From positions 1 to 50,331 of IMG/VR virus record IMGVR_UViG_3300046009_015999: a DNA stretch of 50,331 nucleotides; one strand, 5' to 3'. The position numbers were made by a program, and so were the translations under genes. Shown piece after piece: positions 2,376-50,222 of the stretch. Below the pieces are notes generated by a model. It was not told the DNA's origin. It saw only the letters and a list, made by a program, of their open reading frames with translations, and did not search any database. The stretch comes from a virus. Every line of letters begins with the position of its first letter. Position 1 is the stretch's first letter.

Positions 2376-3738
2376 TTACAAATCAAAACAAATAGATCTA
2401 CCGCCTCTAGCCTCAGACATGAATCGACTAAACAAAAGACCTTCATATACTGGATCGACATCAGTGATTCCAAGGCAATAACAAACCAAAGATCCACAAG
2501 CACTTCCTCTTCCGGGTCCTACAGCTTGAGTTCCATCACCACCGATATTTTCTCTACACCATTTTCTTGCTTCGTCAGTCATCATCTTTTGAATAAGAAA
2601 ATATGTACTAAAACCTTTGCGAGTTATAAGGCTCAACTCTTCAATTATTCTATTTTTATATTCTGTAGTCATTGGCAAATTACGATGTTTAAATCCTCTC
2701 AAGACTTCATCCTTAAGCCTTTGGTCACAATCTGGAAATATAGGTAGTTTCAGACTTCTATCTAATTCGACACCTTTTGCTTTACGACAAATCTCTACTG
2801 TATTCTTTTTAGCTTCGCAAAAAATTTCATAAGGAATAATATCTTTATAATCACTCAGCCACTTTTCATTAAGTTCTTCCTCAGATTTCATCCATAGATT
2901 AGCATCCTGCAATTCGAAGAAATCCTGCATTGAATCTTCTTTCATTGCCCTTTGAATTTCTTTTAATGTTCTGTTGGTCTGAACCATCAACATAAGTCTT
3001 TGCAAGTGACTATCTTCTTTACGGCAATAATGACAATCTTGCGTAAGAATAATCTTCAATCCAAATTTTTGCTTTGCTTTAACAATAAAAGCGTCATAAG
3101 GTTTTTGTTTAACAAAATCTAAAAGCATAATTTCAAGCAGATAATTTTCTTTACCAAACATCTGAATGTATCGTTCTATCATTTGAAATCCAGCTTCTTC
3201 TCCGCCAGCATCAAATGCTCTGCCAACTTCGCTGTTATAGCAACAACTTGTAAAAAATAAGCCTTCTTTATGCTTCTCAAGTTGTTCGTAATTTACTCTT
3301 GGCTTTCTATAAAATCCTTTCGTCCAACCCCAAGATGTCAAACGAACAAGATTTTTATATCCAGTTTCATTATATGCTATGGCTAATAAGTGTGGACTTG
3401 CTCTCAGTTCCAATAATTCACTTGGAGAGAGAGATTCAGAAAATTTTTGCATGTCCGACAAAGAAGAGGATTGTGGTTGCAATCTATTTACATAAAGTTC
3501 CGCAGCGAATATGGGAGAAAGTTTATTTTTCCCATATTTATCACATATCTTTTCGCATGCTTTGATTTGTCTGGGAACTGCTCCCAACATGCCATGATCA
3601 CTAATTGTAAGAAAATTTTGATTTATTTCTGTAGCACGAACCGAATATTCTTCGCATGTTCCAAGCCCATCGAGGACGGAAAAGTCGGAGTAACTAATGA
3701 AGGTGGAGATGTTCAAAACCAACAATCTCCACCTTCAT
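2376..3738 (-). CDS. dnaE: DNA polymerase III alpha (DnaE) N-terminal fragment: PHP plus start of palm; frameshifted and truncated
   Basis: The PHP domain (LTISDHGMLGAVPRQ, then FAAELYVN) is followed by the C-family polymerase signature GPGRGSACGSLVCYCLGITD. The best start is ATG at 3738 behind AAAGGAG; it reads MKVEIVGFEHLHLH and meets TAG at 3696-3694. Removing one T (3697/3696) would continue straight into SYSDFSVLDGLG, so the N-terminal metal-binding motif is interrupted by a one-base insertion. An uninterrupted 449-codon frame can begin only at TTG 3725, which loses HLHLH. The 3' end is also abnormal: the protein stops at ARGGRSICFDL, just where family members enter the catalytic PDxDxD motif and hundreds more residues. 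It is either a decaying gene, half of a split polymerase, or partly an assembly error. Confidence 0.8.
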
Positions 3739-3747
3739 TGTTACTCC
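3687..3747 (-). promoter_or_regulatory. Long hairpin burying the RBS and start codon of the polymerase fragment
   Basis: On the minus strand the 23-nt arm 3747-3725 (beginning GGAGTAACAATGAAGG) pairs with 3710-3687 across a 14-nt loop, with a single bulged A at 3695. The stem contains the Shine-Dalgarno GGAG, the ATG and the frameshift site. Translation from 3738 should be strongly repressed unless the helix is opened. Confidence 0.7.
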
Positions 3748-3765
3748 TTTCGTAAATGTCATTGT

Positions 3766-4554
3766 TCAATCTCTTTGTTTAGTTTGAAGCCAAATTAAAA
3801 ATTCTTGCTTATCGTACTTTGCATTTTTACGACAATTCTCAGAAGCTGAAATTGGTCGTAAATTTTCCAAACAATTGATCAAAGACAAATCCCAAATCTT
3901 ATGATCTGAAAACGCCTTGATTGGGAAAATATGGTCAATATGCCACTTTCCATTTTTTACCTTTTCATAATTCTCATGATTGATTATATGATTTTGCAAT
4001 TCTTTATAATCATAGCCAAGTAAAGCTGAAGTTTTAGACTTTTTTACTCTGCCAGTAACCGCCAAACTCATACTCAATAATTTATACGATCTCTGTCGAA
4101 ATATCAAGTCCATTTTAAATTTCTCTCGATCATCAACCCATTCATAATGATTTTCTCCAGATCGTTTGGCAATTCCGCAATCCCAACATCTTTTACCTGT
4201 TCTGAAATTATTCCAAGAGATCTTTGCTTCTTTGCCACAAGAACAAATATATCGCATATTCTTGGAAGACTTTTCGTATTGATCCAAAAGCGTACAACCA
4301 ACGGCTGCGAATTCAGATTTTATTTTTTCATGAGAATAAGAGAATCGTTCGCTTATTTTGCGAGAACCGCAATTTTTACATCTATTGCCAGATTTGAAAC
4401 TATAAAAAACAATTTTAGATTCGTTTCCACAAGAACAACGATACCTCATTGGTGTGCGAGCATTGATATAAGTATCTTCTAATAATTTGCAACCATTTTT
4501 TAAGAAGAAACTTTGAACGAATTGATAGGTAAGTCTTTGACTTGAATATTTCAT
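3766..4554 (-). CDS. Free-standing HNH homing endonuclease with zinc-finger repeats
   Basis: Residues ~25-135 hold two copies of a zinc-binding module (RYRCSCGNESKI...NRCKNCG and RYICSCGKEAKI...KRCWDCG), probably for DNA recognition. The C-terminus carries an HNH core: WHIDHIFPIKAF, then NCLENLRPISASENCRKN. The start is taken at 4554 (MKYSSQRL) because GGAGG lies just upstream; a longer frame reaches 4587 without an RBS. It sits directly upstream of the damaged polymerase gene, the usual habit of phage homing endonucleases. About 262 aa. Confidence 0.85.
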   Translation of the reverse strand: MKYSSQRLTYQFVQSFFLKNGCKLLEDTYINARTPMRYRCSCGNESKIVFYSFKSGNRCKNCGSRKISERFSYSHEKIKSEFAAVGCTLLDQYEKSSKNMRYICSCGKEAKISWNNFRTGKRCWDCGIAKRSGENHYEWVDDREKFKMDLIFRQRSYKLLSMSLAVTGRVKKSKTSALLGYDYKELQNHIINHENYEKVKNGKWHIDHIFPIKAFSDHKIWDLSLINCLENLRPISASENCRKNAKYDKQEFLIWLQTKQRD

Positions 4555-4860: not shown

Positions 4861-7800
4861 TTATTTCTTTTCTCGAATTCTTACATTAGCAGGATCATTA
4901 TCGAAACATTCGAATACGACATCAGTACCATCATGACCTTTAGTGGAAAGAAAAACATCATTTCCCCAAATGAATCTTAGACCAACCAATACATCTCGAA
5001 CATAAGGCTCATGAAGCGGTCTGCCTTCAAATGTATGCTCAAGCATCAGATAGCCCTTACCACGATAATTAGGCTCTGTTAAACGAATATCTGGCAGTCC
5101 TCCATTTACATGGCGAGCCATCAACAATTTTTTTATCTTATTGTAATCATGACTTTCAAGAATCGTCTCTCCGCTTGGATAACGCTTATGTTCAAAGTAT
5201 TCTTGTTCTCGACAGAAATCCTCGGTAAAAAATTCATGTATTAAAGTTAGATCATCGTAATACTTTCTAACTTCAAATATTTTTTCCTTACCAAGCATTG
5301 CCTTGGTATCCCATTTTTCTTTCTTGCTAGAATTTGTGCAATCATCCCATTCATTGCCGAATTGACCTTTATCCCAACGATTGCGAATATCGGACAAAAG
5401 ATTATATCCTAGCTTATAAGGATTGGTGCTATATTTTCCACCAAGAACACCCATCTTGTGTGCAGCGTATTCAATGATTCCAGAATCATGAGTCTTTTGA
5501 CCCAAGCCGACATAACCCTGTTCTGCCATGATAACATGGTCAGTCATACTATTATGATTCATAAATCCACAAGCCGAATATCGATGACTTGTTTCTACTG
5601 TAATGTCATACACTGTATCTTTTCCAATTTTTTCGATAGAAACAATTTCATCTTCAAGTTTTTGATCAATAAACCATTTATGATTGTCAATATACTTCTT
5701 TAACTTTTGCTGTTTTCTAGATAATCCAAAACCTATTTGCTCATAATACTTTACCGCTTCCTGTCCGGTTATGCGTACATGCCAACAAGAATCTTTTTGT
5801 TTGCGTCTTGTTGATAATATGCAAAAATTCAACAAAACATTTTGTATTTGTCTGGAAAGAACTTCGCTTGCGGTGGAAAGAATGACACCAGCATTCCCCG
5901 CATAACCATCACAATCAAAATACGATCTTACAAAAGAAGCGATAACACTCTTGGGCGATTTAAGAATAATTTCTGGTATTTGCTTAATCCTAGCACAGAC
6001 TCCAGTTTTCATTCCCAAATAAACAAGTAGTTCTTCAAGTTCTTTTGAAGTTACAGAAATTCTATATCGACCATTTTTAGATGTGTCATCCCAACTAGAT
6101 TTACAATCTATACTAAATAATTTCTTTGTAAGACGAATATAATTATCGGCTTGATCTTTATCTCCAGTTGTTAAGCCAAGAGTTCTCTTGCTTTTAGATA
6201 TATGACCATCTCCAATCATATATCCAACAAATGAAGCAAATTCTTCATCCATAAAAAAAGGCAAAGATATACATTTCCTTTTATTTCTCATGCATGTCAT
6301 AGACTGATCATCATATTGCTTGAGCAATTTGTCTAAATTGTCATTTTTTTCTTCACCTTTATAATGATATTTTCTATAAACGACTTGAGACATAGTCACT
6401 GATGCTTTTTTACAAATTTGCTTCAATTCTATCCTTTTATTGGGCAATTTATAATCGATTTTTTGATATTTTTTCGTCCAAATATTTGAAAATGATATTT
6501 TAACTTTTTCACCTACATTCATTTTATCAAGACGAACCCAATCATTATTACCCATAATTCTATGATTATTTGAACCCTCAAAAACATATCCTCTTCTAGT
6601 TTCAATCCTATAAACATCACGATTTTCAAAAGTGAACCAATTTGTAACATTTCTAGATTTTTCACCATCATAAACCATAACAGGCAACTTTTTATCGACA
6701 ATTTCACCTAATGTCAAAATGCCCATATTTGTAGATACAAGAGAATCTTTTCGTCCGCAAGCCCATCCTTCGTTTAATACTTTGGTTTGTCTCTGTGGGA
6801 AAAAATAAATTGATTCTTCATAGATCATAGACATGATATCTTGTTGCCAAGGCTTAAGTGGAGCATTATCACGCAAAAATCCAAATATATCTTTAACTGG
6901 TTCTATAAAAAATCCAAGTTCTTCTGCAAGATCCTTATCTTTTACCTTTTCATTTTCTCTTTCTTTGAACTCTTTTGTGTTGATGTAATTATCCATATAA
7001 AATCGATCACTATCAACTTTAAGTCTTTTTGGAAATCTATAATTTCTTTTATCAATAATATTTCTATCTTTGATAACTTTTTGATGCCAAGCCGATGCTC
7101 CATCAACCAAAGTATCAATGCGAAGTAAATAATCAAGAAATTCAGTAACCTTTTCCTTGCCCCATCTAGCCATATATTTTTTAATACGGCTACTATGATT
7201 TGCCATGTTGTTCAACATGTTTGTATCAGTAGCAGAAAAGTGAATATTATTTTTAAAGAAATCATTATGACCAGTGGCGTGAGCGATAACAGTCAGATGA
7301 TCCAATAATGTGTTGCTATCTAAGCAATAGATGTAACATGGCGATGTGTTATGAGTAATCAATCCATATGCAATAAAATCATGAGCATCATGATCCAATG
7401 CAATATCAACAGTTTCGATCTCATCTCCATCAACAACATGCTCAACAACAAATAAAGGATTTGAAATAATATCTTTAATTTCATTTGGAACACTTAATCC
7501 TTGATTTTCTGCTCTTTGTACAAATGAAGAAAAAGAATTAATCCCAACTTTTTGTTTCTCGAACATTTTAATTGAATAGCCAAGACTATGGTTGTTATAT
7601 GTTGTAATGTTTAGATTTTTTGCCCACATAATCAATTGTTGTTGAATATATGGCAACTCCATACCTCCATTACGACAAAATTTTCTATCAAGTAATTTTT
7701 TAAGTAATTCTTGCTTATAGTTAAGCACAAAACCTATTCTATTGTAAAATTTATTTTCAGCCCAAATTCCCTTAATTTTAACAACATTAATATATTTTTG

Positions 7801-8967
7801 ATCACCTTTTTTACCCTTGCCATTTTTTAATGTTTTTAAATTAGAAAGAATTCCCATTTCTGAAAGCATAATCTGAACATCATCTGCCAATTTTTTATTG
7901 TAGCAACTAAAACCAACATGGTTAACCACATAGCCATCAGTATCGAACAAACCACGAATAAAAGCACATCTATAGGCAGGAGGAGACTTCCAAATAATAT
8001 CTGGAATTACTTTTTCTTTAAATGTGTTGCCTTTCTTTAAACCAATCGAATTAACAAAATCAACTGCGTTTTTTGAGCATAATGTTACATTGAAACAATT
8101 TGGCTTTTCGTAAATATCTGCTCCGATTCCAAATACCTTTTCAAACAAAAATACAACATGTTCTGCGTATGACCTATGTTTTTTACCAACAGCAACAGTC
8201 AACATATTTTCAGCCGACTTTACTCCTACTGATCCATCTCCAACCAAAATTCCAAGAAGTTCTGCCAATTCCATAGTAATCTGATTTGGCGGATAAATTT
8301 CTTTGACACAATGTCTAATGTTTGGTCTTGTTGATTCAATGACTTGTTTTGATGACCAGTCAATACTTGGTGCATCCCAATTATTTTCATAAGAATCAGT
8401 TCCTACAAAAATGTCACCAGAAATAATTTCAGATGTCTTTTTCCAGATCAAACCTTTATCGGAAAGTATACGCCACTTGTGATTTGGCGTACAAACTAAT
8501 GTCTGACCACCTTTAAGAAAAATTTTCTTGGTTTGAGAAGAATTTTGTTTTTTTATGGCGACAACATTCCTAGTTTCACTACCAACAATAACTTGATCTC
8601 CTACCTTCACATCTCCAGCTAGAATTGTACCACGCTTAGTCAAAACCGGAGCGTCAAGTTCACAGCAATTGATAACCATCTCATATATTTTGTGCATTTG
8701 ATTTTCATATCCACGCTGCAATTCTTCATATTGCATGCCAAATGACCAATGTGGATATCGTACTGGAAAACCACCATACGCTGCTACTTCAGAGATTTCA
8801 TCGTAGGTAAGAAGTTGCACTACGGTTGGATAAAAGTCCAAACCCCAATCTTTACAAACATTTAAAATTATTTGAGCATATTCTTTTAATTGTTTTGGAA
8901 GCTGAACTCCGGGAATTGTGTTGTCGCCAATAAGAAGCGAAGAACCATGCATGAACTTATTAGACAT
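4861..8967 (-). CDS. spoVR: SpoVR/YcgB family protein containing two inteins
   Basis: A 1368-codon frame. Host-protein parts are residues 1-100, 541-736 and 1140-1368; together they give about 525 aa, the usual size of E. coli YcgB/SpoVR. Recognisable family blocks are YPHWSFGMQYEEL, IAHATGHNDFFKNN, VLNEGWA and LEHTFEGRPL. Intein 1 (101-540) splits the INTSPC motif and intein 2 (737-1139) splits NEGWA-SMTDH, both conserved places. SpoVR is needed for spore cortex formation in Bacillus; in enteric bacteria the family travels with PrkA (YeaG) and YeaH in a stationary-phase/stress system of unknown chemistry. It is the third gene of that operon here, 18 nt downstream of YeaH. Function depends on protein splicing of both inteins. 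Confidence 0.93.
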   Translation of the reverse strand: MSNKFMHGSSLLIGDNTIPGVQLPKQLKEYAQIILNVCKDWGLDFYPTVVQLLTYDEISEVAAYGGFPVRYPHWSFGMQYEELQRGYENQMHKIYEMVINCCELDAPVLTKRGTILAGDVKVGDQVIVGSETRNVVAIKKQNSSQTKKIFLKGGQTLVCTPNHKWRILSDKGLIWKKTSEIISGDIFVGTDSYENNWDAPSIDWSSKQVIESTRPNIRHCVKEIYPPNQITMELAELLGILVGDGSVGVKSAENMLTVAVGKKHRSYAEHVVFLFEKVFGIGADIYEKPNCFNVTLCSKNAVDFVNSIGLKKGNTFKEKVIPDIIWKSPPAYRCAFIRGLFDTDGYVVNHVGFSCYNKKLADDVQIMLSEMGILSNLKTLKNGKGKKGDQKYINVVKIKGIWAENKFYNRIGFVLNYKQELLKKLLDRKFCRNGGMELPYIQQQLIMWAKNLNITTYNNHSLGYSIKMFEKQKVGINSFSSFVQRAENQGLSVPNEIKDIISNPLFVVEHVVDGDEIETVDIALDHDAHDFIAYGLITHNTSPCYIYCLDSNTLLDHLTVIAHATGHNDFFKNNIHFSATDTNMLNNMANHSSRIKKYMARWGKEKVTEFLDYLLRIDTLVDGASAWHQKVIKDRNIIDKRNYRFPKRLKVDSDRFYMDNYINTKEFKERENEKVKDKDLAEELGFFIEPVKDIFGFLRDNAPLKPWQQDIMSMIYEESIYFFPQRQTKVLNEGWACGRKDSLVSTNMGILTLGEIVDKKLPVMVYDGEKSRNVTNWFTFENRDVYRIETRRGYVFEGSNNHRIMGNNDWVRLDKMNVGEKVKISFSNIWTKKYQKIDYKLPNKRIELKQICKKASVTMSQVVYRKYHYKGEEKNDNLDKLLKQYDDQSMTCMRNKRKCISLPFFMDEEFASFVGYMIGDGHISKSKRTLGLTTGDKDQADNYIRLTKKLFSIDCKSSWDDTSKNGRYRISVTSKELEELLVYLGMKTGVCARIKQIPEIILKSPKSVIASFVRSYFDCDGYAGNAGVILSTASEVLSRQIQNVLLNFCILSTRRKQKDSCWHVRITGQEAVKYYEQIGFGLSRKQQKLKKYIDNHKWFIDQKLEDEIVSIEKIGKDTVYDITVETSHRYSACGFMNHNSMTDHVIMAEQGYVGLGQKTHDSGIIEYAAHKMGVLGGKYSTNPYKLGYNLLSDIRNRWDKGQFGNEWDDCTNSSKKEKWDTKAMLGKEKIFEVRKYYDDLTLIHEFFTEDFCREQEYFEHKRYPSGETILESHDYNKIKKLLMARHVNGGLPDIRLTEPNYRGKGYLMLEHTFEGRPLHEPYVRDVLVGLRFIWGNDVFLSTKGHDGTDVVFECFDNDPANVRIREKK
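5551..6759 (-). mobile_element. Intein 2 in SpoVR (403 aa, LAGLIDADG type)
   Basis: Begins CGRKDSLVSTN after NEGWA and ends HRYSACGFMNHN with Ser at +1. Block B is GSNNHRIMG. Two dodecapeptides, SFVGYMIGDGHI and SFVRSYFDCDGY, indicate a homing endonuclease. It differs clearly in sequence from intein 1, so the two are independent invasions of one gene rather than a duplication. Confidence 0.93.
7348..8667 (-). mobile_element. Intein 1 in SpoVR (440 aa, LAGLIDADG type)
   Basis: Begins with Cys (CCELDAPVLTKRG, matching the C-x3-D-x2-V block A) and ends FIAYGLITHN, followed by Thr as the +1 nucleophile. Block B is LVCTPNHKWRIL. Two LAGLIDADG dodecapeptides are present: ELLGILVGDGSV and AFIRGLFDTDGY. 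All splicing residues (Cys1, TxxH, terminal His-Asn, Thr+1) are visible, so it should be active in splicing, and the endonuclease motifs retain their Asp residues. Confidence 0.93.
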
Positions 8968-8985: not shown

Positions 8986-10182
8986 TTACTTTGATTTTTG
9001 ATTACCCATCAAACTTTTAATTGCATCTAAAATTTGATTATTTCTAATTTCATCATCACGCATATTCGAATCATTAGGATTTCCATTTCCAAAGTTAATT
9101 TCGGTGGTACGAATATTATTTTTATCAAGCTCTCCAGTTTCCAATGCCTTATCGACATGATACTTAACACTATTGGTATAGTTATAAGGCAAAATTTGTG
9201 TGATCCCGACTAAATTAATATCCTTTTCTGGAAATGATTCTTTTAATGTGTTGATAAATACTTGATTATCATCGCCCCAATTATCTCCATCCGTAAAGTA
9301 AAAAACATAAATGTTCCACTTTTGCGGAGGGTATCTATTCTCAAATTGCTTTTGAATAAATTTCAAAGCAGAAGAACAAGTTGTTCCTCCGCCATATCGG
9401 TAGTTATAAAACTTTTCTTCATCTACTTCCATGGCAAGAGAATCGTGCCACACAAAAAGTCGATCAACTCTTTTATAAAATTGTCTAATCCAAACATCAA
9501 TCCACCAAGCCATATCTGATACGATCTCACATTTAGCTTGATCCATCGATCCAGATCCATCACGGGCATAAATGATCAAAGCATTGCTAGAAGGAACTTT
9601 AACTTCTTTGTATTGCCTATAACGCTTGTCACGCTTAATTGGCTTGATTGTCTTCATAGGCATGCTAAGACCCGGAACTATTTCAAAATTATTAGCAGTT
9701 CCATCTGCACATTGCCTTTTTAAAGCTTCGATAAAAGTTCTTCTATTATGACGCAAAGATTCGGGACCAACCAAAGATATATTATTATATTTGATTTTTA
9801 CTTCATCGAATGTATCATTTACTTTTGGCTTTAAATTTGGCAATTCCAGTTCATCTTGCATGAACTTCAATACAGTTTCCAAATCAAGACTTACGGTGAT
9901 TCCTTCACCTTCATCCTGAGTTGCTCCATTGCCTTTTCCTTTTTTGCCCTTATCAATAACATCGCCATCCTTGCCTTTACCTCTGCCGATGCCATTGCCG
10001 TTATCACCATAAAGAATTTGAGGAATATCAATTTTTGGAATTGTGATAGAAATTTTACCTCGTTTGCCACGAGATTTTACTATCTGTCCAGATTTGATAA
10101 ACTTTTTAAGTGCTTTACGAAGTTTGCCTGAGACAACATCTATAAAGTCTTTATGATCTTCTTCAATTCTGCGTGGACACAT
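8986..10182 (-). CDS. yeaH: YeaH/UPF0229 (DUF444) family protein with vWA-like domain
   Basis: 398 aa, slightly shorter than E. coli YeaH (~427). The N-terminus is basic, then a Gly/Lys-rich low-complexity linker (residues ~60-95), then a vWA-like domain with the MIDAS motif DGSGSM at 208-213 and the later T and D positions (GGGTTCSSAL, YFTDGDNWG). DUF444 proteins accompany PrkA and SpoVR in many proteobacteria. It lies 6 nt downstream of PrkA, so the two are co-transcribed and probably translationally linked. Likely role: a metal-dependent protein-binding partner of the kinase; the molecular target is unknown. Confidence 0.93.
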   Translation of the reverse strand: MCPRRIEEDHKDFIDVVSGKLRKALKKFIKSGQIVKSRGKRGKISITIPKIDIPQILYGDNGNGIGRGKGKDGDVIDKGKKGKGNGATQDEGEGITVSLDLETVLKFMQDELELPNLKPKVNDTFDEVKIKYNNISLVGPESLRHNRRTFIEALKRQCADGTANNFEIVPGLSMPMKTIKPIKRDKRYRQYKEVKVPSSNALIIYARDGSGSMDQAKCEIVSDMAWWIDVWIRQFYKRVDRLFVWHDSLAMEVDEEKFYNYRYGGGTTCSSALKFIQKQFENRYPPQKWNIYVFYFTDGDNWGDDNQVFINTLKESFPEKDINLVGITQILPYNYTNSVKYHVDKALETGELDKNNIRTTEINFGNGNPNDSNMRDDEIRNNQILDAIKSLMGNQKSK

Positions 10183-10188
10183 GTTCTA

Positions 10189-12261
10189 TTATTCCTCGGC
10201 TAGATCGCCTCTTGCAAATATAGATCCAACAAAATCTAGAACATCAGTTGCAGATCTTTCGTTATAACCATACTGTTTGATAAGGCGAGTTTTAATCGCA
10301 TCTATTTTTTCTTGAATATCCTTATCAACCACAGTTGCTCCGCTAACATTGAGTGCGGACAACTTAATGGTATCTTTTACATCTTCAAAAAGCTTTGCTT
10401 CTAAAGCTTTTCTCAATTTTGGATTAGAATCCCAACTAAATTGCTTGTGCTTGATTGCAAGGTCGCCAATAAAAGCAGCTATCTGCCTACGGAAATCATC
10501 AGCACCCGGTTCTGGTATGTCGATCTTAGATTCAATGGCTCGCATCAATCTTTCATCAGGCTTTCTATCTTGCCCTGTGATTGGATCTTTAATCTTACTT
10601 TTGTTGATATACGCCATGATATTATCAATGTAATTAGCACAAAGGCGAATAATCGCATCTTCATCACCAACAAGAGCCTTCTGAACTTCGGCTTTTAAAA
10701 TTTCAGTCAACTTCTTAACTACTAAATCAATACATGTGATGTATCGACCAACATCATCCTTATTGTTCAACAAAGAACTTCCTTCTAAACCTTCACGAAG
10801 CTCATTTAGAACCATGAACATATTTACATAGTCATGATTATTGGCTAGGCAGTTTGAAAGCTTATCTTGAACATAACGAACTGAAACACCACGGGTCATA
10901 CCCTCATCAGGATACCTATCCTTTAATTCTTTGACTTGCTCTTCTGTCCATCCAGAAAGAAGTTTGCCGTCATAAAGCTCTGCCTTTTCGACTAAGGAAA
11001 TTTTACCATCCTTATCATCATGAAGTCTGGTTAAAACTGCCCATAGAGCAGCAACTTCAAGTGTGTGTGGTGCGATATGTTGTTTGACCCTATCTACACC
11101 ATAATCTTTTTCCAAGATTTTAAGTTCTTCGCCCCATCGAAGAGTATAAGGAACATCGATCTTTACAGTCCTGTCACGCAACGCTTCCATATATTGATTG
11201 CTTCTAAGCCTTTCGTATTCAGGGCTATTGGTATGACAAAATATTGCCTCATCAATAGAGACTTGTGCAAACTTCTTCGGCTTAATACTTTGCTCTTGGC
11301 TTGCTCCCAAGAGATCATATAAAAATGCTTGATCTAACTTCAAAGCTTCTATAAACTCTATAATTCCCCTGTTTCCGACACAAAATTCTCCGTCAAAATT
11401 AAAACTTCTTGGGTCAGAGTCGGAACCAAAGGTGCTGATACGACTAAAATTAATATCACCTGTAAGTTCTGTAGAGTCTTGATTTTTTTCATCTTTCGGT
11501 TGGAATGTGGCGATACCAACACGATCTGCTTCGCTATATGTTTTTCGAATTACTCGAATATGTTTTTCGAGAACTTTTTCGAGATCTCCATCATACCTAA
11601 TCAAAAGTTCTTTCATAAAGAACTTGCATCTTGGATCAAGCTCTCCCTCGCACTTCAATGCATATAGTTCATTTCTCTCTTCTGCAGATACAGACTCAGA
11701 AAGAACTCGATTCAAATCATCCATAATAGGTTTACGAATTTCTGGAGGAAGCAACTTAAGTGGCTGCTCATGCATTGGGCATTCGTCTTCTTCTTTGACA
11801 TAAATTCCATCTTGTCCAGTCGGAAGATTTATCCATTTGAAAGTATACCAAGCACCAGCATCGGTTGTGGAATAATTTTCCAATTCTCGCTTGAACAATC
11901 TACAGATTGTAGATTTAGAGCTACCTACAGGTCCGTGCAAAAGAAGAATTCTTTTTTCAGTACCAAAATATCCAGCTGCACCTTTGATGAACTTAACCAA
12001 AGAATCCTTAGTTGGTGTCAGACCAATGATTGGACATTCCTGATTATCAAAAAAATTATAATGTTTGTATGTCTTTCTGTATTCTTCAACGGCATGACAA
12101 CCCTTTTCCATAATCATGTCGTAAATCATTTGCCAAGAATTACGAACAAGTCTTGGTTGCTGATAGCACAGATCAATGTATTCGGAAAATGACATTTCTC
12201 CGTTAAGAATTTTAAATTTGCTTTGATTGAATCTGCCTATGAATCTTTTAAGTTCGTCCAT
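10189..12261 (-). CDS. prkA: PrkA/YeaG family serine protein kinase (AAA+ ATPase)
   Basis: 690 aa, close to E. coli YeaG (644). After a helical N-terminus come the PrkA AAA domain with P-loop GPVGSSKST at 110-118 and the characteristic GEFCVGNRGIIEFIEALK and CHTNSPEYERLR blocks, then the C-terminal PrkA kinase-like domain (TRGVSVRYVQDKLSNCLAN). In bacteria it works in stress and stationary-phase adaptation with YeaH and SpoVR. The residue before the P-loop Lys is Ser instead of the Gly usual in E. coli (GPVGGGKS). First gene of the operon, starting 34 nt downstream of a likely promoter. Confidence 0.94.
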   Translation of the reverse strand: MDELKRFIGRFNQSKFKILNGEMSFSEYIDLCYQQPRLVRNSWQMIYDMIMEKGCHAVEEYRKTYKHYNFFDNQECPIIGLTPTKDSLVKFIKGAAGYFGTEKRILLLHGPVGSSKSTICRLFKRELENYSTTDAGAWYTFKWINLPTGQDGIYVKEEDECPMHEQPLKLLPPEIRKPIMDDLNRVLSESVSAEERNELYALKCEGELDPRCKFFMKELLIRYDGDLEKVLEKHIRVIRKTYSEADRVGIATFQPKDEKNQDSTELTGDINFSRISTFGSDSDPRSFNFDGEFCVGNRGIIEFIEALKLDQAFLYDLLGASQEQSIKPKKFAQVSIDEAIFCHTNSPEYERLRSNQYMEALRDRTVKIDVPYTLRWGEELKILEKDYGVDRVKQHIAPHTLEVAALWAVLTRLHDDKDGKISLVEKAELYDGKLLSGWTEEQVKELKDRYPDEGMTRGVSVRYVQDKLSNCLANNHDYVNMFMVLNELREGLEGSSLLNNKDDVGRYITCIDLVVKKLTEILKAEVQKALVGDEDAIIRLCANYIDNIMAYINKSKIKDPITGQDRKPDERLMRAIESKIDIPEPGADDFRRQIAAFIGDLAIKHKQFSWDSNPKLRKALEAKLFEDVKDTIKLSALNVSGATVVDKDIQEKIDAIKTRLIKQYGYNERSATDVLDFVGSIFARGDLAEE

Positions 12262-35571: not shown

Positions 35572-36147
35572 CTATTCGCCATTTAAATAATCATATTCAG
35601 AAAGAGAAACCTGACCCGATCTTATTGATTTCTCTCTTGTTATTTTTTTGCCCATACTTTTTTGCCCATTCCAAACAATTGCTTTGCAGTATGTGGAAAA
35701 TTTTGTGTCTATTTTCAATCGTTCATTTCTATCTGGTCTAAATTTCTTTGGAACTACAGACTTCACAATCAAATCAAGCATGCGTTCCTGCTTGTATCCA
35801 AACTTCTGTCTGTTCGCACCATGCCTAGTTCTATTGCTCCACAAATCTTGAAGCTTCACTATTATCTTCTTCATGAAGCCATCAATATTGTGCTGATCTA
35901 CAGAAGCCAAACACTTCTCAATATATATCTGTCTTTTATAATAAGATCCAGCACGAATGATTGACAATTGCAATTCTTGATTTATATCTTCAAAATCATC
36001 AGTGTAATTATTTTTTGAATTTTTCTTTTGCAATTGATGTGCTGCGTAATAACAAAGCTTTCCAAAGCACTTAGTAAGATGATCATATTCCAATTGAGTT
36101 ATCGGAAACGATTGGCAAATGTTTTTCGGATTCTTTTGATTTTTCAT
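35572..36147 (-). CDS. Sigma-factor-like protein, uncertain
   Basis: 191 aa. DDFEDINQELQLSIIRAGSYY and IDTKFSTYCKAIVWNGQKSMG resemble sigma region 2 pieces separated by an ~80-residue insertion. T4-like phages use a divergent late sigma (gp55), so this could be the late factor. Overlaps the polymerase gene by 65 nt, with AGGA upstream of its ATG. Confidence 0.4.
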   Translation of the reverse strand: MKNQKNPKNICQSFPITQLEYDHLTKCFGKLCYYAAHQLQKKNSKNNYTDDFEDINQELQLSIIRAGSYYKRQIYIEKCLASVDQHNIDGFMKKIIVKLQDLWSNRTRHGANRQKFGYKQERMLDLIVKSVVPKKFRPDRNERLKIDTKFSTYCKAIVWNGQKSMGKKITREKSIRSGQVSLSEYDYLNGE

Positions 36148-37477
36148 TCTTAGTCCTATTTGGCAGTTTAATTGTTTTCATCTCAGTAATTTTTCTTCCA
36201 ACAGAGCAAGAAATGCTCATGCTCAAATTTGGAAATAAATTACATTCTGAAACCAACGATTTATGGGAAGCCAAAATAACTTCTTTTAATTTTTCCCTGT
36301 TTGCATAAATCATATACCCGTCATGTACATTATAAGCTATTCTCCCAATACCATTCAAGGATTTGTAAAGACCAATCAATTGATACAAACAATAAATGGC
36401 AGAAGGAGACTGAACTGCAAAATTTCTAGCCCTATAAGACTTATCTTGAAAATGCCTTATTTTGCCACAATAATCCACAACTTTTTTATCGATTTCGGCT
36501 TTGTTCTGGTGATCTTCAATCCACTTGTAGGCTTTAAAAAATATATTTTTAATTCGGTCAACAATTGCTTCTGCGACTTTTATTGGTAATCCAAACTTCT
36601 CTGATATTCCATAAGCACTCATACCATAAAAGACAGGTAAAAATATTTTTTTACATAATGATCTTTTGTCTTCGGAATCACAAGGAGTTTTCAAAATTTT
36701 CTCATAAGCAACTCTGTAGATGTCTTCGCTATCACACAAACCATTTATTTCCTCATCACCAGACAACCAACCCAACATTTTAACTTCCATGCTTTTGTAA
36801 TCCATATAAACAAATACGGAATCAAAATCCAAAGGCTTCAATAATTCACGCTGTTCTGGACTTATGACATGCGGAACGAATGATCTTGTGAGAGCCTTAT
36901 AGCAAAGCATTCTTCCATTTTCTTGACCAGTTATGTCATAAAAGGCATGTAGCTTTTCGGTTGTCAATATGCCAATCGTTTCTAGCGAAGGAACTACTTC
37001 CAAAGCTAAGGGAAGATGAACCGACTTATAAATCTTTTGTGTTTTAGACCAATTATCAGAAGACATGACCTTTTTCAATCTTCCCATGAATTCAATCATG
37101 GTTTTTGGCTTTTCGAGCTTCGTATCTGTGTAGCTTTCCAAAATCTTAAGATCAATGAGTGTTCCCTTAAATTCAATAGTAATCCCATACATTCCCAACA
37201 AAAACGAAGCTATGACTTTCCAGTTCCAAACAAGTATCTTTTTGCCTTCACAACACAAAGAATTAGAAAAAGCCTTGGAAAATATTCTTGCAGACCAATC
37301 TCCATCCAAAGGTATCTCATGCGAACCAAAAGAAGAACAAATAAATATCGTGGCTTCTTTAGCCTTTTCTCTGCTCGTAAAGTCCAATACAGCATCCGTA
37401 GCTGAAAGGTAAACAGCCCCTGTTGCTGCATGATCATACAACAGCTTAACAATTTGACTAGGATGCATGGAACTCAT
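36083..37477 (-). CDS. DNA polymerase, family A (Pol I/T7-like)
   Basis: 464 aa. Motif A DYKSMEVKMLG (D226), motif B KRSLCKKIFLPVFYGMSAYG (~271-290) and motif C NVHDGYMIY (H385 D386; usual VHDE has Gly here). The N-terminal ~200 residues look like a degenerate exonuclease or linker region without clear DxE. Short for a Pol I. Main replicative polymerase candidate, in the same strand run as helicase and sigma-like gene. Confidence 0.88.
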   Translation of the reverse strand: MSSMHPSQIVKLLYDHAATGAVYLSATDAVLDFTSREKAKEATIFICSSFGSHEIPLDGDWSARIFSKAFSNSLCCEGKKILVWNWKVIASFLLGMYGITIEFKGTLIDLKILESYTDTKLEKPKTMIEFMGRLKKVMSSDNWSKTQKIYKSVHLPLALEVVPSLETIGILTTEKLHAFYDITGQENGRMLCYKALTRSFVPHVISPEQRELLKPLDFDSVFVYMDYKSMEVKMLGWLSGDEEINGLCDSEDIYRVAYEKILKTPCDSEDKRSLCKKIFLPVFYGMSAYGISEKFGLPIKVAEAIVDRIKNIFFKAYKWIEDHQNKAEIDKKVVDYCGKIRHFQDKSYRARNFAVQSPSAIYCLYQLIGLYKSLNGIGRIAYNVHDGYMIYANREKLKEVILASHKSLVSECNLFPNLSMSISCSVGRKITEMKTIKLPNRTKNEKSKESEKHLPIVSDNSIGI

Positions 37478-37789
37478 ACATAAAATCTACCATAGCTTGA
37501 ACTTAAATCAATAGAGAAAAGTCGTAACAAAATATTTTTCTACTATTTTTATATCTTTATATTGTAAACCGAGTTGCCGACTTAGTTATCTTGCTGTTTA
37601 ATGTATGAATTAAATGAAATTACATACATAATCAATTGAATTGTTTCTGTGTTTAAACATATCGTAATTCATTTGATTCAACTGATAACTCATAGTATGA
37701 ATTCTTATGAACATCATAAGATTCCTTGTGTTTTGAACAATTGATACCAATGAAGCCATATAACTCACAGTTGTTCCCATTTCTTGTCT
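37478..37789. other. Non-coding stretch, no clear feature
   Basis: No convincing gene. A small minus-strand frame (37610-37870) has poor composition and no RBS. The stretch is AT-rich and continuous with the RNA candidate to its right. It lies upstream (5') of the polymerase gene on the minus strand, so it may be its leader. Confidence 0.5.
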
Positions 37790-38012
37790 GCAAAATGAGA
37801 GTCGGCTATTTTTGACACAACTGCGGAAGACTTGGCTTTTCGAGCATAACAATGGTTCTCGTTGCACCATTCGTGTTTTTCACTACAAAGACTTACCCGT
37901 CAGGGCTGCTCAAGTTTTTTTCACGGTAAGTTATCGTTGGGGTATCCTCAACAATTACCTAAAGGGGAAGAGTAAGCTTCCGTCTTAGTTATTTATAGTT
38001 TCTATGACAAGT
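37790..38012 (-). ncRNA. Candidate structured RNA (or switch-like leader), minus strand
   Basis: More GC-rich than its surroundings and full of inverted repeats. ACTTACC-type bases (37931-37925) can pair with 37955-37959 (GGTAA) or with 37897-37891 (GGTAAGT), so two mutually exclusive folds are possible. Other hairpins: 37936-37952 (GTTGGGG/CCTCAAC on the plus strand), AATGGT/ACCATT at 37851-37871, CCCGTCAGGG, and GGAAG/CTTCC at 37966-37981. Directly upstream are a sigma70-like promoter and a TATAAATA. No known RNA family recognised; boundaries are approximate. Confidence 0.5.
37990..37997 (-). promoter_or_regulatory. TATAAATA, T4-late-type octamer
   Basis: An exact TATAAATA on the minus strand sits just upstream of the folded region and downstream of the sigma70-like promoter, giving possible early and late transcription of the same RNA. 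Confidence 0.45.
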
Positions 38013-38018
38013 AGGATT

Positions 38019-38047
38019 ATTATAATTTAGGTAAGATAAAATTGCAA
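38019..38047 (-). promoter_or_regulatory. Very good sigma70-like promoter
   Basis: Minus strand -35 TTGCAA (38047-38042), exactly 17-nt spacer, perfect -10 TATAAT (38024-38019), with AT-rich UP-like sequence behind. Predicted start about 38012, aimed at the structured region and the polymerase gene. Confidence 0.8.
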
Positions 38048-38294
38048 TCGATTATTTTGAAAAAATAATTTCATTTTCAATAATCATTTAAAAAACTACG
38101 AATGTGATTAATCTAATTCTTGTTTTGATAAAAATGAAAGAATTTTTCCAATTACTTAAATGACGATTATCGTAATCAATGCTAACCAAAGTAATAAAAT
38201 AATTTCATTCATTTGTGATATGATACTTTAATCTAAGATAATTTTCAACTAGATAAAATGCCATCTTGAGAAATTTCATTTATAGGGTATGATA
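38048..38294. other. AT-rich non-coding stretch
   Basis: No gene. It contains a near-palindrome ACGATTATCGT (~38163) and repeats of TAATTTCATT; it may hold the promoter of the 38295 gene or an origin-like feature, but nothing distinct is seen. Confidence 0.4.
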
Positions 38295-38984
38295 ATGATC
38301 GATTTAAAAAAACTAGCTGAGAAATACAAGATGGATGAATTAGAAGTAAAAGCTTTGAAAGTATGTCAAATATGGATGGAAATGAGTAAAAAAATATTTC
38401 CAAGTTATAATCACAATAAATTTGGAAAAGGAGATCCAAGAAAAACTTTAATGTTTAAAGTTTGCTATAAGCTAATTCGTGAAACTTCTGGATTTATAGG
38501 AGATGACGATTATCCATTATATGTTCGAGCGCAATTAGATATATTGAAACATATAAGTTTAGATAAAGGTCATCCACTTATAGAAGTTAATTGTTTGGTT
38601 GGAGATAAAGCTTGGAAACGATGGAAATTATGGAAGAAGAAATATGATACCACTGTTCAAATTAGGTCAAAAACCGCTACAACTAAAGTTAACAATCCCA
38701 AAATCATTGAGGCTCTTAAAAAAACAAAAGAATTTTTTGACTTACATTTTGGAAATAAACCAACTTATGAAAAATTTAAAGAATTTGAAAAAGATGGATC
38801 GTTATACCGATATGTTAATTTTGGTAAAATATCTCCGTACTATTTAGTTTTGTCTCCATACTTTGAAAAACTTTCTAAAGAATGTGTGATGCAAAAGATG
38901 AATTTTGATATTCAACTATATAAGACTGGTATAGATGATACTACTTTAGAGCATTTTAAAAATTTATTCATATATGAATTTTAA
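38295..38984 (+). CDS. Hypothetical protein, 229 aa
   Basis: Start at 38295 (MIDLKKLAEKYK) because AGGG is 7 nt upstream; ATG 38289 is too close. Helical, Lys-rich, with many aromatic residues (KAWKRWKLWKKKYDTTVQI). Not recognised; its place beside replication genes allows a DNA-related role, but no motif shows one. Its stop overlaps the convergent thioredoxin-like gene by 4 nt. Confidence 0.65.
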   Translation: MIDLKKLAEKYKMDELEVKALKVCQIWMEMSKKIFPSYNHNKFGKGDPRKTLMFKVCYKLIRETSGFIGDDDYPLYVRAQLDILKHISLDKGHPLIEVNCLVGDKAWKRWKLWKKKYDTTVQIRSKTATTKVNNPKIIEALKKTKEFFDLHFGNKPTYEKFKEFEKDGSLYRYVNFGKISPYYLVLSPYFEKLSKECVMQKMNFDIQLYKTGIDDTTLEHFKNLFIYEF

Positions 38985-44438: not shown

Positions 44439-46656
<2,218 letters not shown>

Positions 46657-46729
46657 ATTTTTCACCGAACTACATATTTTCACCGATAACAAATTTATTG
46701 TTTTGCTTACAGCCAATACATAGAGATAA

Positions 46730-48997
<2,268 letters not shown>

Positions 48998-49023
48998 TTT
49001 CAATTTGCTCTAATCAAGCAACC

Positions 49024-49062
49024 AAAAAATCTTTTGCTGTAAAAGGCAAAAGATTTTTTTTT
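49024..49062 (+). terminator. Intrinsic terminator after fibre B
   Basis: Perfect 14-bp stem: AAAAAATCTTTTGC (49024-49037) pairs with GCAAAAGATTTTTT (49046-49059), with a trailing T-run. Confidence 0.85.
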
Positions 49063-49064
49063 GA

Positions 49065-50221
<1,157 letters not shown>

Positions 50222-50222
<1 letters not shown>

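Follow-up and report, generated by a model that had tools for sequence, protein, structure and literature searches.

The window, a stretch of 50,331 nucleotides of viral DNA that we analysed as a whole, carries a compact family-A DNA polymerase gene (polA) and a divergent gene encoding 231 amino acids, whose product has no family match (Table 1). The two are separated by an interval of 811 bp (37478-38288). A sequence-only reading had noted that some 800 bases here lack a believable gene, and this was borne out: the ORFs inside the interval are not conserved, and we rejected a coding explanation. An ORF of 67-92 amino acids that runs through the region in two relatives (L047 and L048) looks accidental. 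What the interval does contain is a structured RNA, and the order 231-aa gene <- RNA -> polA is the same in 21 other viral contigs. The RNA heads a cluster of replication genes that includes the family-A polymerase and a DnaB-type helicase; the genes of the polA operon are polA, a sigma-like gene, a glycosyltransferase gene and DnaB. The polA product is just 464 amino acids long and its family-A match covers residues 172-429, so that the N-terminal part may be a proofreading domain that has degenerated, or something different. A protein of 191 amino acids encoded at 35572-36147 (minus strand) is very conserved, with 64% identity in the phage LR756511, and has no family match; a sigma-region-2-like look (TDDFEDINQEL, judged by eye) makes it a possible late sigma factor. 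The closest annotated phage record is the 595-kb uncultured phage LR756511.1, and because it is the sole close match among annotated phages, the window probably represents part of a huge phage genome.

Table 1. Positions of the RNA, its parts and the neighbouring features in the window.
Feature	Position	Strand	Basis or remark
231-aa gene	38289-38984	+	Divergent neighbour on the other side of the RNA in every locus where found
Promoter of the RNA, TTGCAA-17-TATAAT	38019-38047	-	Same place before the RNA 5' end in L010, L045 and L109
Structured RNA	37565-38012, possibly to ~37533	-	Covariance models, covariation, constraint, strand; start at 38012 predicted
Hairpin GGAAG-CUUACU-CUUCC (helix 1)	37966-37981	-	Double changes in 3 of 5 pairs
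Stem-loop GGUAA...UUACC, loop UACCCC, includes ACTTACC (helices 2, 3)	37925-37959	-	Covariation in 9 of 10 pairs
Most conserved core: multi-way junction closed by GAGCA/UGCUC (helices 4-7)	37842-37912	-	Covariance-model matches, covariation
Hairpins within the span of the core junction: CCC-UGAC-GGG; GUG/CAC; AAUGGU-GCAACGAGA-ACCAUU	37842-37912	-	
Long stem CGCAGUUGU/ACAACUGUG with inner stem CUCAUUUU/GAAAUGGG (helices 9, 10)	37766-37825	-	Double changes in 14 of 18 pairs
Conserved motif GAUAUGUUUAAACACAGA, small hairpin	37646-37663	-	Comparison with relatives
Conserved 3' motif CUAAGUCGGCAACUCGGUUUA	37565-37585	-	Comparison with relatives
Pseudoknot 1, 5' side: hairpin loop CGAG	37858-37861	-	CAAG in L047/L048, jointly with CUUG
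Pseudoknot 1, 3' side: CUCG	37570-37573	-	CGAG:CUCG becomes CAAG:CUUG in L047/L048
Pseudoknot 2, 5' side: GCCGAC	37801-37806	-	GCAGAC in L051, jointly with GUCUGC
Pseudoknot 2, 3' side: GUCGGC	37576-37581	-	GCCGAC:GUCGGC becomes GCAGAC:GUCUGC in L051
Promoter-like site just before polA, TTGATT-16-TAGATT	37484-37511	-	Weak alone; nine-lineage sum exceeds all shuffles
polA, compact family-A DNA polymerase	36083-37477	-	Pfam DNA_pol_A E 2e-19; synteny; always directly downstream of the RNA

The same polymerase was found in nine related contigs, eight of them near-identical and one (L010) only 73% identical, in which the RNA region is still alignable and highly conserved. In L010, an additional ORF of 215 amino acids without clear family (3423-4070) is inserted between the 231-aa gene and the RNA; since the insertion sits on the side of the 231-aa gene, the RNA stays with polA and is a unit of its own. 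More distant relatives were located by covariance searches and sequence patterns. A covariance model built from two sequences (R1) matched L045 (E 3e-49), L044 (1e-47), L043 (4e-42) and L046 (3e-15), in each case just upstream of polA. The second model, R2, added L047 (4e-20), L048 (9e-18) and a weak match in L051, and an unfiltered search of the interval only with the third model, R3, supported L051 (E 4e-5) and gave a marginal match in L061 (E 0.001). A pattern from the core sequence led to six further contigs of another lineage (the L105/L109 group, E 1.5e-66), with the RNA again between the 231-aa gene and polA. In total, the RNA is present in 21 contigs besides the window, representing at least seven diverged lineages, plus the weaker case of L051.

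Searches with the RNA models did not detect the RNA in LR756511-type phages or in most other members of the group. At its position LR756511-type phages have an ORF of ~387 amino acids (4784-5947 in L029; likewise in L053, L054 and L056), for which no convincing match was found in Pfam, PHROG or PDB. In the polymerase tree the RNA carriers form one clade, with L051 in the neighbouring clade; the sole row of the carrier clade without the RNA is L042, a contig that begins inside polA. Such a distribution is consistent with vertical inheritance in which some lines lost the RNA or carry copies too diverged to be detected. Unfiltered RNA-model searches of the interval found nothing in L049 and L062, which have gaps of 1.3-1.7 kb at the equivalent place before polA (7064-8736 and 7398-8722, respectively); these gaps may hold other or highly diverged RNAs.

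The relatives allowed the fold to be assessed by covariation. In a model of 63 pairs over ten distinct sequences, 95.1% of the pair cells are standard and 47 of the 63 pairs show changes on both sides, in an alignment that was fitted to the structure and hence leans towards it. Slid controls, with the partner moved by 1-3 columns, gave standard pairs in 37-46% of the cells and changes on both sides in 7-19 pairs. A MAFFT alignment built without structure recovered the core helices, and 42 of its 102 predicted pairs are compensated. Covariation is thus far above that of shuffles and slid controls. G-U cells outnumber A-C cells by 52 to 4, which places the RNA on the minus strand, in the sense of polA; an RNA of the plus strand was rejected on these counts, even though the piece taken alone folds better on the plus strand (z -2.1). 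The sequence-only reading had proposed a folded region that could be a new phage sRNA, and had named covariation in relatives as a check. The check was clearly passed, the folded region is real, and a new phage RNA is strongly supported by the covariation and by relatives at the syntenic place.

The extent of the RNA had been predicted in part. The proposed start at 38012 agrees with the point where conservation begins. The proposed end at 37790 did not stand, as the RNA continues to about 37565 and includes a conserved motif at 37585-37565. Its size is ~450-480 nt, and up to ~570 nt in relatives. The 223-nt minus-strand piece that was originally delimited does not fold better than shuffles (z -0.8), as one would expect if promoter matches and hairpins had arisen by accident in an AT-rich gap; the 483-nt RNA does so clearly (z -4.1). 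Such a chance origin has next to no probability left, being refuted by the covariation and the constraint described below, and by the many lineages in which covariance models match at the syntenic position.

Two long-range pseudoknots were spotted by eye and afterwards counted, each with one compensatory event (Table 1); the second is missing from the L046-L048 branch. Both are predicted to join the 3' end of the RNA to its core, so that the RNA should extend at least to 37565.

At the 5' boundary, the claim of paired early and late promoters stood in one half. The near-consensus promoter TTGCAA-17-TATAAT, of sigma-70 type, is present on the minus strand (38047-38019) and conserved: in L010, L045 and L109 a TTGnnn-16/17-TAnnnT site lies 6-7 nt ahead of the RNA 5' end, so that the RNA has its own promoter at the equivalent position in four lineages. 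Conservation begins at 38012, the predicted transcription start. The late half of the claim was dropped. The sequence TATAAATA is located at 37997-37990, inside the RNA, its counterpart in relatives is TTTATTTA, TTTGAGTA or TATGTCAA, and it occurs 7 times in the window versus 4.6 expected; a T4-type late promoter, with a conserved TATAAATA upstream of the transcript, was rejected because the sequence is neither conserved nor enriched.

Comparison of the window with its near relatives L008 and L009 showed that 1-2 of 448 positions differ across the RNA (38012-37565). In the 276 bases just upstream of it 16 differ (5.8%), in the polymerase gene 25 of 1395 (1.8%), and in the 231-aa gene 29 of 696. 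Constraint is stronger on the RNA than on the adjacent polA coding sequence, a sign that the RNA has an important role. Comparison of the relatives establishes its structure, transcribed strand, 5' boundary, linkage to polA, constraint and vertical inheritance; how the RNA works can be argued from the same features with graded confidence.

We infer that the RNA exists as a stable transcript of its own and not as a leader of polA. It is probably a free-standing RNA of ~450-480 nt with its own promoter, acting in trans as a scaffold or a ribonucleoprotein. A host-type RNA polymerase would transcribe it from the -35/-10 promoter at 38047-38019. In the folded product, hairpins and a multi-way junction would make up the core, and two long-range pseudoknots would close it by joining the 3' motif to core loops. 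The RNA would act in trans early or midway through infection, as is supposed of the large ornate phage RNAs. Its constant position directly upstream of polA and in the same direction, as a leader would have it, counts against a free-standing RNA.

That position, found in every lineage, and the lack of a terminator-like site between the RNA and polA are what one would expect of a very long structured 5' leader that controls the polA, sigma-like, glycosyltransferase and DnaB genes in cis, through processing, antitermination, or binding of an operon protein such as the polymerase (autoregulation). The lack of a terminator cuts both ways: it speaks against classical attenuation, and a separate RNA would have to obtain its 3' end through processing or by some other route. 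What favours the separate RNA is the presence of promoter-like sites ahead of polA, and a 3' motif that pairs back with the RNA core instead of with the region where polA starts. Taken lineage by lineage, the promoter-like sites between the RNA and polA are weak, but their summed score over nine lineages reaches 75, versus a shuffle maximum of 73. In addition, the distance from the last motif to polA ranges from about 75 to 230 nt, and the conserved, mutually exclusive pairings of a riboswitch or attenuator were not found in the relatives. The sequence-only reading had suggested a switch in the DNA polymerase leader, in which ACTTACC (37931-37925) pairs in two exclusive ways. The pairing inside its own hairpin is maintained by covariation, whereas relatives do not preserve the alternative with GGGTAAGT, and the switch is unsupported because ACTTACC varies freely in the near lineages against an unchanging GGTAAGT. 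We rejected this switch, and regard a leader function in general as unlikely.

ColE1 RNA II, a structured RNA of ~550 nt, serves as a primer that a family-A polymerase extends. The present RNA is structured, is of comparable size and heads a replication cluster, as would suit a primer or origin transcript working in this manner, and an origin RNA had been among the first suggestions for this locus. It found no support, as the skew at four-fold codon sites tracks the gene strand with no replication-strand switch seen, iterons were not found at the locus, and members of the same phage group have no detectable RNA. We consider a replication RNA of this kind improbable; the resemblance to RNA II is one of general description, as a structured RNA connected with a family-A polymerase.

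The strict linkage to polA over deep divergence, together with the extreme constraint, would also suit a ribonucleoprotein of the RNA with the neighbouring polymerase, in which the RNA is cofactor, primer or template. In DRT2, a pseudoknotted ncRNA is likewise encoded beside a polymerase gene (PMC12039810); the neighbour is a reverse transcriptase there and a family-A DNA polymerase here. Relatives of the polymerase occur without detectable RNA, however, and the linkage may be plain shared ancestry. We give this pairing only a slim chance. If true, it would be a DNA-polymerase counterpart of the reverse transcriptase-RNA pairs.

To our knowledge, large structured phage RNAs are few and mostly unexplained. 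In Rfam 15, no model matched the window at gathering score, including those for group I and II introns, tmRNA and RNase P RNA, and at E<=10 the interval and three distant relatives (L064-L066) gave chance matches only. Searches of cultured phages with blastn found no match to the RNA, and exact patterns, which would miss diverged copies, found none in GTDB genome contigs. An rRNA-derived fragment was also rejected: scores against E. coli 16S and 23S rRNA are within the shuffled range in five lineages, as are those of the rRNA-like motifs GCAACGAG, GCAGCC..GGUAA and AAGUCGG. A literature search limited to open-licence papers turned up no account of the RNA; an earlier report elsewhere is possible.

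The closest kind among known RNAs are the large ornate phage RNAs ROOL and GOLLD, and a transcript of phage ICP1. ROOL and GOLLD form RNA-only, homo-oligomeric cages and are often located near tRNA islands (PMC12286853). Like them, the RNA is large, with hundreds of noncoding nucleotides, several covarying helices, pseudoknots and conserved loops, is carried by phages, and has a function that is unexplained (PMC12286853). It differs in having no match to their Rfam models, in being shorter and in its linkage to polA, and it does not lie in a tRNA island, the 50-kb window having no tRNA gene. The lytic phage ICP1 makes an abundant transcript of ~800 nt, likewise from a gap without ORFs (PMC7567579). 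The ICP1 ncRNA starts at the lysis cluster; for the present RNA, searches of phage records found no sequence match. OLE RNA is similarly large (~600 nt), structured and conserved, and is reported to occur in Bacillota genomes and to work as a ribonucleoprotein (PMC12054373); the present RNA has no Rfam match.

The RNA is carried by uncultivated huge phages and linked to their replication genes. As a defined molecule, with pseudoknots backed by covariation and a set of relatives, it is open to direct tests, and it suggests that the intergenic gaps of huge phages contain RNA classes absent from Rfam.

Elsewhere in the window, a SpoVR-like gene (4861-8967, minus strand) is interrupted by intein and LAGLIDADG sequences, with two intein-splicing stretches. 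It is followed by a gene without known family (8986-10182, minus strand) and a PrkA-type kinase gene (10189-12261, minus strand), together a sporulation-type cluster in a phage. On the plus strand, a series of tail-fibre genes with collagen repeats lies at 44470-50222, and the N-terminal sequence is similar in two or more of them.
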